Of a stretch of DNA of 64,000 nucleotides, positions 33,971 through 38,804 are shown one piece after another (within the stretch, counting starts at the first letter, position 1; every line of letters starts with the position of its first letter). The translations under genes were made by a program, and so were the position numbers. The stretch covers positions 868,001-932,000 of the forward strand of contig NZ_FNUS01000001.1 of the NCBI RefSeq assembly GCF_900108025.1, in the 5' to 3' direction. The notes beneath the pieces are model-generated. The model saw nothing but the letters and a program-made list of their open reading frames with translations. It was not told where the DNA came from and did no database searches. This stretch comes from Halpernia humi. Its GTDB lineage: Bacteria > Bacteroidota > Bacteroidia > Flavobacteriales > Weeksellaceae.

Positions 33971-33996
33971 AACCTTGGTAAGAAATTATCAAGGTT
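33971..33996 (+). terminator. Terminator of the DsbD-type gene
   Basis: AACCTTGGTAA pairs with TTATCAAGGTT (one G-T wobble) around a GAAA loop, followed by seven T's. Part of it recurs as the direct repeat at 38126-38154. Confidence 0.82.
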
Positions 33997-34004
33997 TTTT
34001 TATG
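33975..34004. repeat. Direct repeat, left copy (flanks peptide/GLPGLI module)
   Basis: A 30-base segment starting TTGGTAAGAAAT and ending T7-ATG matches 38126-38154 except for one T/C substitution and one extra T. Between them lie the barrel, GLPGLI and peptide genes. This copy is also part of the DsbD-type gene terminator. Confidence 0.65.
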
Positions 34005-34024: not shown

Positions 34025-36706
34025 TCACAAACTCAAATCTACACCGATAAGAAAAACCCTATTCAGTAGTTCCGTCTTTCTATACGAAACCGAATAATCC
34101 AATACAGATTTCGTATAGTTATATTTTACATTTAAAATATTATTCAATGCTAGAGAATACTTGAAACTACTATTCTTTGGTCCATAGTTGAAGTTAAAAT
34201 TTAAAAATAAAAAATCTGTATTCTGCTGGAAATCTGGTTTATAATATTCGTTGGTGAGTTTAAATACAAAAACATTACTTTGAAAACTATATAGAAGTTC
34301 GTTTTTTAAACTTAAGGAATTAATTTTAATTTTGGTACGGATTTCTGACTGATTTACTGCTGAGGTAAAATCTAGGGTATTTTTGATTTTTAAAGGAATA
34401 TTAAACGCAAACTGCTGAATTAAATTAATTTGAAAAATTTTAGAATTTATCTTATTTAATTCATTTTCATTAATTGAACTGTAATAATCAAATATATAGT
34501 AATTGGCTTTAAGATTAAATCTGCTGGAAATAAAAGGAACAAATTTCTCAACATTCAGACTTATATTATAGGTTTCATTGGGCTTCGGACTCCGAAAACT
34601 TACTGTATAATCAAAATTAGAATCCACTAAATATTTGCCAATAAAACCGTTCCTGCTTTTTGTGTAACCTACGGAAGCAATAACTTTAAATTGATTTGTA
34701 TAAGAATCATTATAAGTAAAACCAATGTTATAGTTTTCTTGCGTTTGATAATCTAATGAATATTTATTACTAATAATGCTTCTGTTAGATACCAATATAT
34801 AATCATCGAACAGATAATTTTCGGAGATCGGAATTGTAGAAATATCGGCACTAACGAAAGTGGCAGTTTTCGAAAATATATTTCTGAAAACAGAAAGTGA
34901 AGTTTTATTTAAAAATAAATTTTTAGAGTTTATGAAACCATCAATTAAATTTTGTTTTAAAATTTGTGAATTCTGGGTAAAATTGATATTCCAATCTGTG
35001 GTTTTTAGATAATATTCTAAGTTCAAAAAGGCAGAATTAGTTTTATAGGAGATATTATTCTTAAAGTTAGCAAAAGTTGCCGAATCGTCTGAACGCGTGG
35101 TTGAGCGAAGCATATAATTTTCATTTGCAAAACCAACTGTGACTTTTATTTTATGATCTTCCGTAAATAAATGGTGCAGTATAAAATCCACACCCAGATG
35201 CTGTTTACTGGCTTCTACCGCTTGTAAATTGATAGGCGATGAGCCATTATTTGGAAAAATTAATAAAGATGGTGTAATAAATAAATCTTGTGGTTTATTG
35301 TCATACGTATACAGTGCTCTTATTTGCAGAGCATTTTTTTTCTTTAATTTTAAGGTATAGATCAGTTCGTTTTTAGAAAATAGATTTTTAAATGTTTTTC
35401 TTGTCGAATAAAGACGATCTGAGTTCGAAATTAAATTATTCGTAACGTTCTCATTTAAAGCACTTACACTACTTAATATTTCAAAATATTCTTTCTCAGA
35501 TTTATGCCATCTAAACTCTAGGTTTCCGGTTATATAAAGCGGTTTTTTTACGATTGCATTGTCATCTTTGGTGTAAATATTCTCATTATTCAGGTTGTAA
35601 AAATTTTCTGAAATATTATTAAGAAGTATTTTATCTTTTACAAAACTGCCAATAATTTTCAGGTTTGCTCTACTGCCTATTTTAAGTAGCGAATTACTGC
35701 TTGTAAACCATTGTTGGTTTCTATATGCCTTTTCTGAACCAAATCTTGAATCTATAGAATTTTTCTCAATAAGGAAAGGCGCCTGATACTTCGTATTTTG
35801 ATAATCTTCAAAACTCAAAGAATTGGTACTTAAATCTAAAGGTGATTTATTTACGCCGACATTATTGTAATTTGAGGTGGCAAAAGTTTTTACTAATTTG
35901 TTTACTACTAAACCGTATGCACCCAGATTATATCTCTTATAAAAATCTGTTTCTGCCTTTAAACTAGATGAAAAACTCGTTTTATCTTTTTTTAATTTTA
36001 GATTAAGGGCTACTTTATTTTCGCCTCCGATGCTTTTTAATACAGGATTATCAGACCAGTTATCAATTGCCTGAACTTGATCAATAATATTAGGATTAAT
36101 ACTACGGGTACCAATCATGTAATTAGAATTAAATAAATCGCCCCCGTCAAGCATCACGGCAGTTACAGTTTTCCCTTTAAACTCAAGGGAGCCACTTTCA
36201 TTTACTTTTATTCCAGGAAGTTTTTTTAATAAATCTTCTACAGTTTTTTCTGAACCGTCAATAAAATTTTCCGGATTATAAACAACGGTGTCCTTTTTTA
36301 TCTCAATTGATTTTCGTTTACCTTCAATCTTAATTTCTTCAATGGAAACTGAAGATTTAGTCAACTCGAAATTTGTGGAATAAGATTCTTTATTATCAAC
36401 TAGAGAAATAGAGATGCTATCACTTTTTAAGCCTGTGGAACTTGCTATTAGCAAGGCCGTATTTCCTAAACGATTTTCATATTTTATTTGATAGAAACCT
36501 TTTGCATCTGTAAATGTATATCTTGTTTCATTATCTGATTTCAAAAAAACGCGCGCTCTATTGAGCGGCGTTTTATTTTCATCGGTAACAAATCCTCTAA
36601 AATAAATTTGAGCACTAGCTTTAAGAATTATTAAGAGGAAAAAAACTATAAAACATTTGTTAAATTTCAAATTAAATTTTTTATGGATAACAAAAACAGA
36701 AGTCAA
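34025..36706 (-). CDS. TonB-dependent-receptor-like outer-membrane barrel with regulatory domain
   Basis: This 893-residue outer-membrane protein has a signal peptide (ends LKASA near residue 32), a carboxypeptidase-regulatory-like domain (about 34-125), a plug-like domain (about 130-250, with DLLKKLPGIKVNESGSLEFKG and LDGGDLFNS), and a large beta-barrel to the end (VFLIGVDLSL). No classic TonB box is visible by eye. Its start lies inside the last 26 bases of the GLPGLI gene, so translation is coupled. The usual partner of GLPGLI proteins in these bacteria is such a barrel; its cargo is unknown. Confidence 0.85.
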   Translation of the reverse strand: MTSVFVIHKKFNLKFNKCFIVFFLLIILKASAQIYFRGFVTDENKTPLNRARVFLKSDNETRYTFTDAKGFYQIKYENRLGNTALLIASSTGLKSDSISISLVDNKESYSTNFELTKSSVSIEEIKIEGKRKSIEIKKDTVVYNPENFIDGSEKTVEDLLKKLPGIKVNESGSLEFKGKTVTAVMLDGGDLFNSNYMIGTRSINPNIIDQVQAIDNWSDNPVLKSIGGENKVALNLKLKKDKTSFSSSLKAETDFYKRYNLGAYGLVVNKLVKTFATSNYNNVGVNKSPLDLSTNSLSFEDYQNTKYQAPFLIEKNSIDSRFGSEKAYRNQQWFTSSNSLLKIGSRANLKIIGSFVKDKILLNNISENFYNLNNENIYTKDDNAIVKKPLYITGNLEFRWHKSEKEYFEILSSVSALNENVTNNLISNSDRLYSTRKTFKNLFSKNELIYTLKLKKKNALQIRALYTYDNKPQDLFITPSLLIFPNNGSSPINLQAVEASKQHLGVDFILHHLFTEDHKIKVTVGFANENYMLRSTTRSDDSATFANFKNNISYKTNSAFLNLEYYLKTTDWNINFTQNSQILKQNLIDGFINSKNLFLNKTSLSVFRNIFSKTATFVSADISTIPISENYLFDDYILVSNRSIISNKYSLDYQTQENYNIGFTYNDSYTNQFKVIASVGYTKSRNGFIGKYLVDSNFDYTVSFRSPKPNETYNISLNVEKFVPFISSRFNLKANYYIFDYYSSINENELNKINSKIFQINLIQQFAFNIPLKIKNTLDFTSAVNQSEIRTKIKINSLSLKNELLYSFQSNVFVFKLTNEYYKPDFQQNTDFLFLNFNFNYGPKNSSFKYSLALNNILNVKYNYTKSVLDYSVSYRKTELLNRVFLIGVDLSL

Positions 36707-37460
36707 ATGTAGTACTTGAAGAACAGGATTTTCCTGTTATGACATCATTACTTACGTCTGATTCTTTACTACGCAAGTAATTGTTTTTCAAATTGTTTAG
36801 AGTACTTTTTGATATATCTGCATAAAATGTTGCATAATCAATCAACTTAAACTCTGGATTAACAAATGGATAAAAAATATATTTCTTTAATGAATCCTTT
36901 CTAAAATTGACATCTATTAAATTAAAATTATAAATTATGTTACTACAAGATTTTGCCTTAGCCGCCAAAATGAGACCAGGCAAACCATTCAGTTTGTAAG
37001 GACCTTCTGATATAGGTATATCCTCATCATACCACGCTTCCCAGTCGAAATCCCGCCAATGCGTGGTTGCCAATTTACAACTTCTTCCACCAATTATTCT
37101 TATTGAATCCTGTAATTTCCACTCAATATTATTTAGGGAATCTTTTATAACATAACCATCATTTTTGTAACCGATTGCTCTGCCATACATTTCATTTTTA
37201 TTAAAATCTTTATAAACAGAAACGTGATTTGGATAAAACTGCCCAGGATATAACTTTTCCGCTTTTTCAAAATACATATCAAATTTAGAAACACCGTCCT
37301 GAACATAAAGATAACAATCAACTTTAGGTAAAGTTGTTACCTGATCAGTACTGTTAAAGTTTACTTCCATTTGATATGCAACTCGTAAATTCAGACGTTC
37401 TTGTGCAATAAAAAAAGTTACCGTGATTAATAATATGAAAACAAAGACTTTCTTAAACAT
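36681..37460 (-). CDS. GLPGLI-family secreted protein
   Basis: This 259-residue protein has a signal peptide (ends FFIAQ near residue 20) and the family signature GLPGLI in YKLNGLPGLILAAK. It has conserved WEAWYDEDIPISEGP before it. The family is known only from Bacteroidetes, usually beside a TonB-receptor-like gene, and has no assigned function. The C-terminus, KSCSSSTTFDFCFCYP, is unusually cysteine-rich. It lies 25 bases downstream of the small-peptide gene and overlaps the barrel gene by 26 bases, which makes a three-gene operon. Confidence 0.9.
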   Translation of the reverse strand: MFKKVFVFILLITVTFFIAQERLNLRVAYQMEVNFNSTDQVTTLPKVDCYLYVQDGVSKFDMYFEKAEKLYPGQFYPNHVSVYKDFNKNEMYGRAIGYKNDGYVIKDSLNNIEWKLQDSIRIIGGRSCKLATTHWRDFDWEAWYDEDIPISEGPYKLNGLPGLILAAKAKSCSNIIYNFNLIDVNFRKDSLKKYIFYPFVNPEFKLIDYATFYADISKSTLNNLKNNYLRSKESDVSNDVITGKSCSSSTTFDFCFCYP

Positions 37461-37485
37461 AAAAAATTATTTAATTTTACACTAA

Positions 37486-37764
37486 TTAAGGTTGGTCTGG
37501 CGGTGTTGCTTCCATCAATTTTGTAATAGTGGCTCTTACGCAATTGTTACCCCACTGTTGTTGAGCAACTATAGATGCAGCATTACAATCCCCAGATGGA
37601 GAGGTAGCAGAACCTGTTTCTATTGTGCCAGAACCAGAGCAATTTTTAGTGACTGTAACCGTGCAAGGATCTGGCTTTAATAACTTTTCTGCTTTCACAT
37701 TAGTAGATGCATATGAAACTGCATAAGTGCCAACCAATGCAATTGCCAAAATAAATTTTTTCAT
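37486..37764 (-). CDS. Small secreted four-cysteine peptide
   Basis: This 92-residue precursor has a signal peptide ending SYA near residue 19. The mature part has four cysteines (34, 42, 60, 75), a Ser/Gly/Thr-rich centre and an acidic, Pro-rich tail (EATPPDQP). Two disulfides are possible. I recognise no family for certain; a distant relation to short Bacteroidetes NVEALA-type peptides is possible. It is the first gene of the operon with GLPGLI and the barrel, which makes it a candidate cargo or ligand. Confidence 0.7.
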   Translation of the reverse strand: MKKFILAIALVGTYAVSYASTNVKAEKLLKPDPCTVTVTKNCSGSGTIETGSATSPSGDCNAASIVAQQQWGNNCVRATITKLMEATPPDQP

Positions 37765-38125
37765 AATAGTAAATTATTTGATTTTTCAGAAAACACTTTG
37801 TTTACATTTTAAAAAAGTTAGCATTAAAAATGCAAATTACTATTCAAAAAAAACTCATGCATTAGTTGCTTTGATAGTAATCATGGGCTAAAATTAAAAT
37901 TAAAATTGTGCAAACTTATTTTAACATTTTTTTCAATTTACCAAAAATTCAATATTTATAGCATAGCGTATTATTTATTTTATGTACAATAACCTACGTT
38001 AATAAATGAAGATGTATAAGTAAAACAGTCCTTTGATCTCTTTAAACCTTAAAATCAAAATAGTTGTAAAGAAATTTGTTATAAATCTAAAGAAGGACAA
38101 TATTTCTTTAATTGAAACAGAAAGA
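37765..38125. other. Gene-free region upstream of the peptide operon
   Basis: I see no gene here. A minus-strand promoter candidate is TAAGTTTG at 37911-37918 with a TTG box at 37942-37944 (23-base spacer). That would give the peptide gene a leader of about 140 bases. The rest is AT-rich sequence. Confidence 0.4.
37911..37944 (-). promoter_or_regulatory. Candidate promoter of the peptide/GLPGLI/barrel operon
   Basis: On the minus strand, TTG (37942-37944), 23 bases, and TAAGTTTG (37911-37918) match TTG-N17-23-TAnnTTTG. The spacing is at the long end. Confidence 0.4.
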
Positions 38126-38154
38126 TTGGTAAGAAATCATCAAGGTTTTTTATG
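38126..38154. repeat. Direct repeat, right copy
   Basis: This 29-base copy of 33975-34004 (TTGGTAAGAAAT to ATG) has no GC-rich left arm, so it cannot form the hairpin of the left copy. It lies beyond the promoter side of the peptide operon. Confidence 0.65.
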
Positions 38155-38285: not shown

Positions 38286-38804
38286 ATGGAAAATCTAAAT
38301 GAACCCAAAAGCACAGGTAAAAAATCTTTAAGTAAAAAATTAATCCGCGTGGATATGACGCCGCTGGTCGATCTAGGATTTTTATTAATTACATTTTTTA
38401 TGTTTACAACCAATTTCTCCAAACCTAATGTGATGGATTTGGGTTTGCCAGCAAAAGGGCCAATTACAGAAACTCCAGTTATTGATTTTAAAAATCAAGT
38501 GACTTTTATTATTGGAAAAGATAACCGCGTTTTTTACTACCAAAGTGAATTGGGCGATTTGAATTCAAATATTTTAAAAGAAACCTCTTTTGACGGCATC
38601 AAAATTTCAAATATTATTTCAAATTACAAAAAAGCAGCACCAAAACCAGAGTTTTTCACCGTTATCATCAAACCAACAGATGATGCGAATTACAAAAACT
38701 TCGTTGATATGCTAGATAATATGGCGATTACAAAAAGCGACCGATATGGAATCGCTGAAATAAAACCTTTAGAGAAAAAAATTTACGAAGAGAAAGTAAA
38801 TTAA
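38286..38804 (+). CDS. Orphan ExbD-family protein
   Basis: This 172-residue ExbD has the transmembrane Asp29 in DMTPLVDLGFLLITFF and closely resembles the second ExbD of the Ton operon (16708-17280): both share VMDLGLPAK, IIGKDNR/ILGKDNR and FTVIIKPTDDA. No exbB or tonB gene is adjacent. It lies 521 bp after the start of the peptide gene, beyond the right direct repeat, and has its own terminator. It could be an alternative ExbD subunit for the main motor. Confidence 0.92.
   Translation: MENLNEPKSTGKKSLSKKLIRVDMTPLVDLGFLLITFFMFTTNFSKPNVMDLGLPAKGPITETPVIDFKNQVTFIIGKDNRVFYYQSELGDLNSNILKETSFDGIKISNIISNYKKAAPKPEFFTVIIKPTDDANYKNFVDMLDNMAITKSDRYGIAEIKPLEKKIYEEKVN

Follow-up and report, generated by a model that had tools for sequence, protein, structure and literature searches.

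What does a GLPGLI protein do when its gene sits between a gene for a small secreted cysteine peptide and a gene for a TonB-receptor-like barrel? The question is raised by three genes in a 64,000-nucleotide stretch of the Halpernia humi genome (3.1 Mb in 12 contigs), which we call the window. GLPGLI is a frequent Bacteroidota family without an assigned role. A first-pass annotation of this DNA had proposed a unit for peptide maturation, export or uptake, in which the GLPGLI protein handles the peptide and the barrel passes it. This idea is partly supported by our analysis; most sampled GLPGLI genes stand without a linked peptide. In relatives of the window operon, the variable core of the peptide is exchanged together with the GLPGLI gene, and the whole set of three genes can move as one. 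The reading we prefer, slightly short of an even bet, is that the window operon is an allele of a peptide-export cassette, modular and mobile, with the GLPGLI protein as a cognate carrier, an Oar-type barrel as the exporter and competition as the likely purpose. The genes and their parts are as follows (aa, amino acids; nt, nucleotides; ORF, open reading frame).

37486–37764, minus strand: secreted peptide gene, 92 aa, ATG start (ORF listing; a homologous peptide lies at the matching place in G002/L155, and the Cys framework is common to relatives).
37702–37764, minus strand: segment coding for the signal peptide, the first 63 nt; alleles of related cassettes are alike to about here (median nt 62), as measured on relatives and not on alleles of this locus.
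37507–37665, minus strand: peptide core, residues 34–86, a predicted β hairpin plus helix (AlphaFold2, AF2, model); the core is variable among the alleles of relatives.
36681–37460, minus strand: GLPGLI protein, 259 aa, ATG start, with a signal peptide, a predicted LolA-like bowl, a C-terminal helix and a Cys-rich tail (FCFCYP) (TIGR01200 and model).
34025–36670, minus strand: outer-membrane barrel, TonB-receptor-like, 881 aa from an in-frame TTG at 36670 (ORF listing, Pfam, heuristic signal peptide).
34025–36706, minus strand: longest reading of the barrel gene, 893 aa, TTG start (ORF listing).
36362–36598, minus strand: N-terminal extension of the barrel, CarboxypepD_reg (PF13620; 33.1 bits, cut-off 32.3).
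36326–36343, minus strand: TonB-box-like motif IEEIKI between extension and plug, found by eye (IKEVVI or IEEVVI in relatives).
36071–36289, minus strand: plug-like region (PF07715; 16.4 bits, under the cut-off of 23.9).

The ORFs confirm the order of peptide, GLPGLI and barrel genes in one minus-strand series, with 25 bases between the first two. A 26-base overlap between the GLPGLI and barrel genes, also claimed in the first-pass annotation, arises only with the longest barrel frame and is probably a start-codon artefact, because the start at TTG 36670 yields a signal peptide (by heuristic) and a 10-base gap, and the start at TTG 36706 yields no signal peptide. The small exported four-cysteine peptide held up: a Sec-type signal peptide (called by heuristic for all peptides here) is followed by a short linker and a Cys domain with cysteines 34, 42, 60 and 75.

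The series is more than chance, because it recurs. A second copy in the same order lies in the same genome on contig C10 (locus L031; peptide of 103 aa with four Cys, GLPGLI protein of 254 aa, barrel of 881 aa). A homologous operon in genome G002 adjoins the same dsbD-like gene (the neighbour names dsbD, exbD and ATP synthase are assigned by eye) and is 43% identical to the window in the barrel, 49% in GLPGLI and 28–29% in the peptide, whose frame in G002 lacks an ATG where the start should be. A profile of three barrels (E up to 1e-60), run against 316 genomes of the family with at most two candidates scored per genome, gave 52 matches in 44 genomes and 14 of 33 genera; two of them are pieces of one gene, leaving 51 loci. 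The usual order is peptide-GLPGLI-barrel, at times with several pairs before a single barrel ([peptide-GLPGLI]n-barrel). Peptides were called by rule (50–140 aa, heuristic signal peptide, at least two Cys, −60 to 350 bases from the GLPGLI or barrel start). A peptide by this rule is found at 40 of the 51 loci, including the doubtful L104 and L136, and five more were recognised by eye (L094, L099, L102, L117, L118); among these, L099 and L102 have no start codon where one is expected. At six loci no peptide was found (L119, L120, L121, L122, L127, L128). By hand tally, 13 of the 14 genera that have this barrel show a clear peptide; in the remaining genus, g33, it is doubtful. The rule misses true cases (L094, L117, L118 and others) and admits doubtful or false ones (L104, L136, L151, L211); at L172, a better peptide frame adjoins the one chosen. 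L104 (1629–7311) itself holds about six GLPGLI genes in a row before one barrel, with only remnants of peptide genes.

Under a tighter rule (−60 to 250 bases; genes with less than 500 bases upstream, cut 5' ends and repeated sequences left out), a peptide-like frame precedes 52 of 150 GLPGLI genes, 3 of 130 barrels and 15 of 777 other genes. The odds ratio of 27 counts related genes from loci mostly drawn by barrel likeness. A lack of such enrichment, or of conservation of the peptide frame, had been named beforehand as grounds for giving up the idea of a peptide-handling unit. These counts contradict the first; the second is contradicted by the relative in G002 and by ratios of non-synonymous to synonymous change (dN/dS) of 0.12–0.44 in five pairs of related peptides, from which we take these frames to be coding. 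Between the window peptide and its G002 relative, synonymous sites are saturated and dN/dS is uninformative.

Within the family, the frame precedes 30 of 40 GLPGLI genes directly before a barrel and 10 of 20 that lie as much as 5 kb ahead of one. It is seen at 5 of 39 barrel-less GLPGLI genes and at none of six that follow a barrel. Outside the family, among the best 79 of at least 424 relatives, it is seen at 7 of 31 GLPGLI genes directly before a barrel (L211 among them is spurious), at none of five further before a barrel and at none of nine without one. All sampled GLPGLI genes without a downstream barrel together give 5 of 54, one probably spurious. Many other Bacteroidota have GLPGLI-barrel pairs without a linked peptide, in a listing that in part covers plus-strand frames only; there, the barrel would have other cargo or the peptide would be encoded elsewhere. 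A class-wide barrel search found a match at E up to 1e-40 in 29 of 395 genomes. On the GLPGLI tree, peptide presence requires 24 changes and barrel presence 9. An independent-pairs test of barrel against peptide on this tree had no power (6 pairs on starred branches, median p 1; one gene, L094, counted twice).

Joint exchange of peptide core and GLPGLI is clearest between L097 and L103, from two genomes of one genus. The two align over 6,151 nt at 94.6% identity, and this stretch ends at nt 63 of the peptide frame. Through the core and the GLPGLI gene, likeness is limited to a single 84-nt piece in GLPGLI (74%), and it resumes 12 nt before the barrel with 87.8% over 3,654 nt. In the signal-peptide part, 51 of the first 60 nt match, and the exchange border may lie within this part or just before it. 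Among 88 pairs of the same type (barrels at least 55%, GLPGLI less than 50% identical), the median end point of likeness is nt 62 of the peptide frame (38 measurable pairs), and the median point of return lies 11 nt before the barrel (55 measurable pairs). Protein identities follow the same pattern (L172, L211 and L120 left out). Where barrels are 70–80% identical (15 operon pairs), signal peptides are 69%, GLPGLI proteins 34% and peptide cores 24% identical; at 20–30% barrel identity, the values are 38%, 30% and 25%, and at 80–95% (seven pairs) 81%, 52% and 53%. Tandem copies at L114, L145, L095 and L020 have leader and signal-peptide DNA that is 86–98% alike, and cores that are not; those at L106, L123 and L125 are less alike. 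Judged on these relatives, what is exchanged is a single module of peptide core and GLPGLI, set between a leader/signal-peptide region and a barrel that both stay constant.

Two of these loci, L020 (7878–11753) and L145 (6402–8872), are barrel-less peptide-GLPGLI pairs beside ribosomal protein genes; their signal peptides are nearly identical, and their cores are not alike.

A check of co-variation, which the first-pass annotation had called for, gave a positive but modest result: peptide likeness tracks GLPGLI likeness beyond what the barrel explains. For the Mantel tests we left out L172, L211, L151 and L104, then near-duplicates (49 to 46 pairs) and then barrel-less pairs (40). Core and GLPGLI likeness correlate with r 0.20 (p 0.0005, 46 pairs), and given the barrel with 0.113 (p 0.024, 40 pairs). 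Given GLPGLI, the peptide core shows no relation to the barrel (p 0.18, 40 pairs), and the signal peptide does track it (0.28, p 0.0004). Of the 20 most alike peptide pairs, 16 rank among the top 5% by GLPGLI likeness, and 7 among the top 5% by barrel likeness. Taken together, exchange and covariation in relatives suggest that peptide and GLPGLI are paired. A variable core swapped with its partner as a module beside a constant delivery part is also a mark of polymorphic toxin systems; here the effector role is putative.

The three genes also travel as a unit, since they are the sole cargo of a Tn3 transposon. A 7.8-kb element with terminal inverted repeats of about 50 bp occurs at three places with 99.8–99.9% identity: L099 and L102 (both in G084, the latter on an 81-kb contig) and L100 (in G187). 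At L100 it holds a Tn3 transposase (PF01526, 516 bits), a resolvase (PF00239) and the three cassette genes, with no other frame of at least 60 aa after pruning. No 5-bp target-site duplication was seen at the three copies, and the plasmid collection had no match to the Tn3-borne cassette DNA, nor to the window barrel at E up to 1e-30. Broken copies also occur: barrels carry stops or are split (L107, L115, L120), and the GLPGLI gene of L108 is split.

What could the GLPGLI protein contribute to such a cassette? The family assignment is firm by sequence (TIGR01200, 108.2 bits, cut-off 50; PF09697, 35.7 bits, cut-off 25). Built on an alignment of 53 GLPGLI proteins, the window model reaches a predicted local distance difference test score (pLDDT) of 79.1 and a predicted template modelling score (pTM) of 0.77; the Cys-rich tail stays below a pLDDT of 50. 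With Foldseek, the nearest solved structures are the bowl-like domains of PNGase F-II (E 1.7e-8; VIA Z 14.0–14.5). The best LolA chain, 2w7q_B, follows at E 2.2e-7, with a template modelling score (TM-score) of 0.44 by query and 0.61 by target, and VIA gives Z 10.5–11.0 for the four best LolA chains over 142–152 residues (root-mean-square deviation 3.5–4.6). VioE and RseB/MucB are also among the solved folds near the model, after the PNGase domains. A sequence profile search of the PDB matched PNGase chains only (E 3.6e-10), among them 7zgn, whose molecule is named 'Glpgli family protein'. The LolA family was absent from Pfam scans (E up to 1) of the window and L031 GLPGLI proteins. The protein is thus predicted to fold like a LolA-type carrier, yet it is not LolA by sequence. 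Its gene is one of 19 GLPGLI matches in the genome; among 40 genomes, there are up to 28 per genome. The Cys-rich tail (SC...FDFCFCYP; 36681–36740) at the end of the window protein is kept in the G002 relative, and both operons adjoin a dsbD-like gene; a link of tail or neighbour to disulfide exchange is possible.

The peptides themselves look like one loose family, in which the Cys framework is common and the core sequence otherwise little alike. Counted after the signal peptide, the cysteines of four-Cys peptides are spaced by 8–12, 16–18 and 15–28 residues in 16 of 23 cases. Two-Cys peptides have a spacing of 25–32 in 15 of 19, near the first-to-third spacing (26–30) of the 16 conforming four-Cys peptides. 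These tallies were made by hand from a list of 49 peptide-GLPGLI pairs; peptides outside the pattern include L116, L134, L139, L141, L142, L165 and L170. The AF2 model of the window peptide (14-row alignment of low identity; pTM 0.56) has a hairpin of strands 34–42 and 47–55 and a helix at 60–86, with mean pLDDT of at least 90 in the blocks covering residues 31–80 and 85 for 81–90. This predicted core would let the cysteines pair. No relative was found in the PDB (best E 2.3 by structure and 0.25 by profile search). The variation between peptides looks like replacement; positive selection within alleles is unsupported, given the low dN/dS of the five pairs.

Known families did not match the peptides. 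The window peptide has no Pfam or NCBIfam model at cut-off, nor do nine cassette peptides searched against the same two libraries, and PADLOC found nothing in the three window proteins. Matches of the window peptide to the AimP and Phr models, and of other cassette peptides to DUF6520, cover the signal peptide only and are far under cut-off. With the window peptide as query (E up to 0.1), 66 of 320 family genomes gave matches; loci were drawn for 30, with plus-strand frames only and not all judged frame by frame, and only the window and G002 (E 1.1e-9) looked real. Ten further matches that we inspected all belong to one lipoprotein-like family. Since sequence search missed the peptide family, it was found through gene context instead.

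Of the barrel's parts, the N-terminal extension is above its cut-off, and the plug is a weaker match (20.1 bits in the G002 homologue; none listed for the L031 barrel). For these three barrels no transmembrane barrel family was found in Pfam (E up to 1), and the barrel had no PDB sequence match at E up to 0.01. Of 127 barrel frames, 106 had the anchor needed for a loose TonB-box pattern, and the pattern finds such a motif in 47 of the 127; IEEIKI in the window is a putative TonB box.

In the sister species G001, the dsbD-like and exbD-like genes are adjacent, 187 bases apart, and the operon is absent; G003 and G004 have a different gene after dsbD and likewise no operon. Since these three genomes are without the operon at the site and G002 has it, the window operon is, on gene order, an accessory element at a site used in two genera. 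Several other cassette copies adjoin genes reading as ATP synthase genes. In the window's own genome, L029 (6553–8506) holds a 74-aa Cys frame and two GLPGLI genes by an ATP synthase beta-like gene near a contig end, a cassette site in relatives. The exbD-like gene of the window (38286–38804) adjoins the operon and is present, too, in the operon-free sister species. Three further features flank the operon:

37911–37936, minus strand: weak promoter-like sequence of Bacteroidota type (TTG...TAAGTTTG), a pattern match alone without a chance estimate, to what we presume to be the Bacteroidota promoter consensus.
33971–34001, no strand: terminator-like hairpin between the convergent dsbD-like and barrel genes (sequence).
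38125–38151, no strand: degenerate second copy of the hairpin sequence, beyond the other end of the operon and with unchanged orientation (sequence).

The hairpin sequence thus flanks the operon on both sides in the same orientation, perhaps as a trace of insertion.

In the peptide-export reading, the peptide would cross the inner membrane by Sec and be oxidised in the periplasm, where its disulfides would form. The cognate GLPGLI protein, as its predicted fold suggests, would hold the peptide as LolA holds a lipoprotein, and would hand it to the Oar-type TonB-dependent barrel for export. The released peptide would act on other cells, most likely in competition among related bacteria; this is suggested by the variability of the peptides, the arrays, the broken copies and the carriage on a transposon. 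Several points weigh against this account. GLPGLI and barrel are themselves strongly related (r 0.535); the partial correlation of peptide and GLPGLI is modest, as is the effect beyond the most alike pairs, and among the 20 most alike peptide pairs 4 depart from GLPGLI likeness. The TM-scores to LolA are moderate even for the best chain, the best fold matches are PNGase accessory domains, and LolA-like folds serve also as sensors (RseB/MucB) and in an enzyme (VioE). Outside the family, 24 of 31 GLPGLI genes directly before a barrel have no linked peptide by rule. The plug match is under cut-off, and both transposon copies in G084 have a peptide frame without a start codon at the expected place. 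A constant barrel would also have to face unlike cores, less so if GLPGLI presents the cargo. As for the earlier claim that GLPGLI handles the peptide, joint exchange and the predicted LolA-like fold speak for it at cassettes; for GLPGLI proteins as a class it does not hold, as they mostly lack a peptide, and few of the 19 copies in the window's own genome are linked to one.

The leading rival, in our view somewhat unlikely, is a toxin with its immunity protein. Here the secreted peptide would be antibacterial, GLPGLI would be the cognate periplasmic immunity protein, the barrel would be exporter or receptor, and unlinked GLPGLI genes would form a store of orphan immunity. This explains the exchange equally well as a carrier does, since core and partner are swapped jointly beside constant delivery parts, as in polymorphic toxin systems. 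The GLPGLI row with peptide remnants at L104, the many GLPGLI copies per genome and the transposon carriage all fit. The GLPGLI-barrel pairs without a linked peptide elsewhere in Bacteroidota better suit a working partner of the barrel, the predicted GLPGLI fold is that of a carrier, and no toxin, immunity or defence family reached cut-off in Pfam, NCBIfam and PADLOC, the libraries scanned. Both roles could hold at once.

Alternatively, the peptide could carry a ligand such as a metal or haem, with the barrel importing the loaded peptide and GLPGLI receiving it in the periplasm. Most characterised TonB-dependent barrels import, and the TonB-box-like motif in part of the barrel frames is consistent with this. 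We consider it improbable: wholesale swapping of core and GLPGLI is unexpected for a nutrient carrier, and the barrel, unchanged as one core gives way to another, would need to recognise cores that are not alike. A slimmer chance goes to a peptide that is never released and serves as a subunit of the barrel or cell surface, varying in escape from phages or predators. Variable surface parts swap under such pressure too, and arrays put several peptides before one barrel, but the barrels, a natural phage target, are 75–87% identical between alleles with differing GLPGLI and core (pairs of L095–L098, L101 and L103). That a small secreted gene merely happens to precede GLPGLI is hardly credible: the related, mostly barrel-drawn sample, the powerless independent-pairs test and the other genes that also have such a frame upstream leave it some room, but it is already contradicted by the enrichment, the Tn3 cargo and the L097/L103 exchange, and further opposed by the clear peptides in nearly all genera with the barrel and dN/dS below 0.5 in five pairs.

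Beyond the cassette, a bolder extension of the peptide-export reading, which we hold to be doubtful, would give GLPGLI proteins in general the task of recognising secreted Cys mini-proteins, from a large repertoire that is mostly unlinked. Together with Oar-type barrels, the GLPGLI proteins would then make up a polymorphic system of peptide release across Bacteroidota, used in conflict between relatives, with the LolA-like fold providing both carriage and protection. At the cassette itself, the peptide pairing and the predicted carrier fold give part of the GLPGLI family a first testable role, with the partner named in some tens of alleles. If the peptides kill relatives, they would be a new class of weapon with many natural variants.

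Each part can be placed in a known family or fold; their combination, and the way it is exchanged in modules, seem to be new to the literature searched. In that literature, which left preprints and most subscription papers uncovered, TIGR01200 was not found and GLPGLI is seldom named. Titles and the opening parts of abstracts on flavobacterial TonB-dependent peptide export, bacteriocins and polymorphic toxins held nothing on this system. Bacteroidetocins and other bacteriocins with double-glycine leaders are small secreted peptides of Bacteroidota. The cassette peptides differ from these in their heuristic Sec-type signal and in the linked LolA-like protein and barrel; by eye, no genes for modification of ribosomally synthesised and post-translationally modified peptides (RiPPs) or for ATP-binding cassette (ABC) export were recognised in the cassette gene lists, whose neighbours were not profile-scanned.

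In the polymorphic toxins SitA/SitI and CdiA-CT/CdiI, effector and cognate partner are exchanged jointly. The cassette resembles them, as far as the partial accounts of the myxobacterial SitA/SitI go (PMC5562445, PMC8546572), in its constant delivery part with a variable effector and partner, and differs in its partner, which is predicted to have a carrier fold, in the dedicated barrel that comes next and in having only a putative effector. The nearest solved relative of GLPGLI by profile and fold is the N-terminal bowl-like domain of PNGase F-II type enzymes (4r4x, 4r4z, 7zgn), which is there joined to a catalytic domain and whose role is described as unknown in the excerpts at hand (PMC9522356, PMC12381499); the GLPGLI family may inform that role. 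With the Lol pathway (LolA, LolB) and the LolA paralogues of Bacteroidota, as outlined in part of one source (PMC11885536), GLPGLI shares its predicted LolA-like fold and a heuristic Sec-type signal peptide. GLPGLI has no Pfam LolA match, its putative cargo is a soluble Cys peptide instead of a lipoprotein, and it follows the peptide subtype.

For the barrel, the closest parallel is Oar of Myxococcus xanthus, which combines a PF13620 extension with a plug and a TonB box and is needed for the protease PopC to be secreted (PMC6434023, an excerpted source, as for what follows). PopC is a protease, and the excerpt describes no linked LolA-like partner or swappable peptide module. The plug match of the window barrel is under cut-off, and the direction of export here is argued by analogy. 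The two systems share a barrel with a PF13620 extension and a TonB-box-like motif, beside a plug in Oar and a plug-like region in the window barrel, and a cargo protein made by the same cell. If the barrel does export the peptide, it would be a further case of TonB-dependent secretion beside Oar-PopC.

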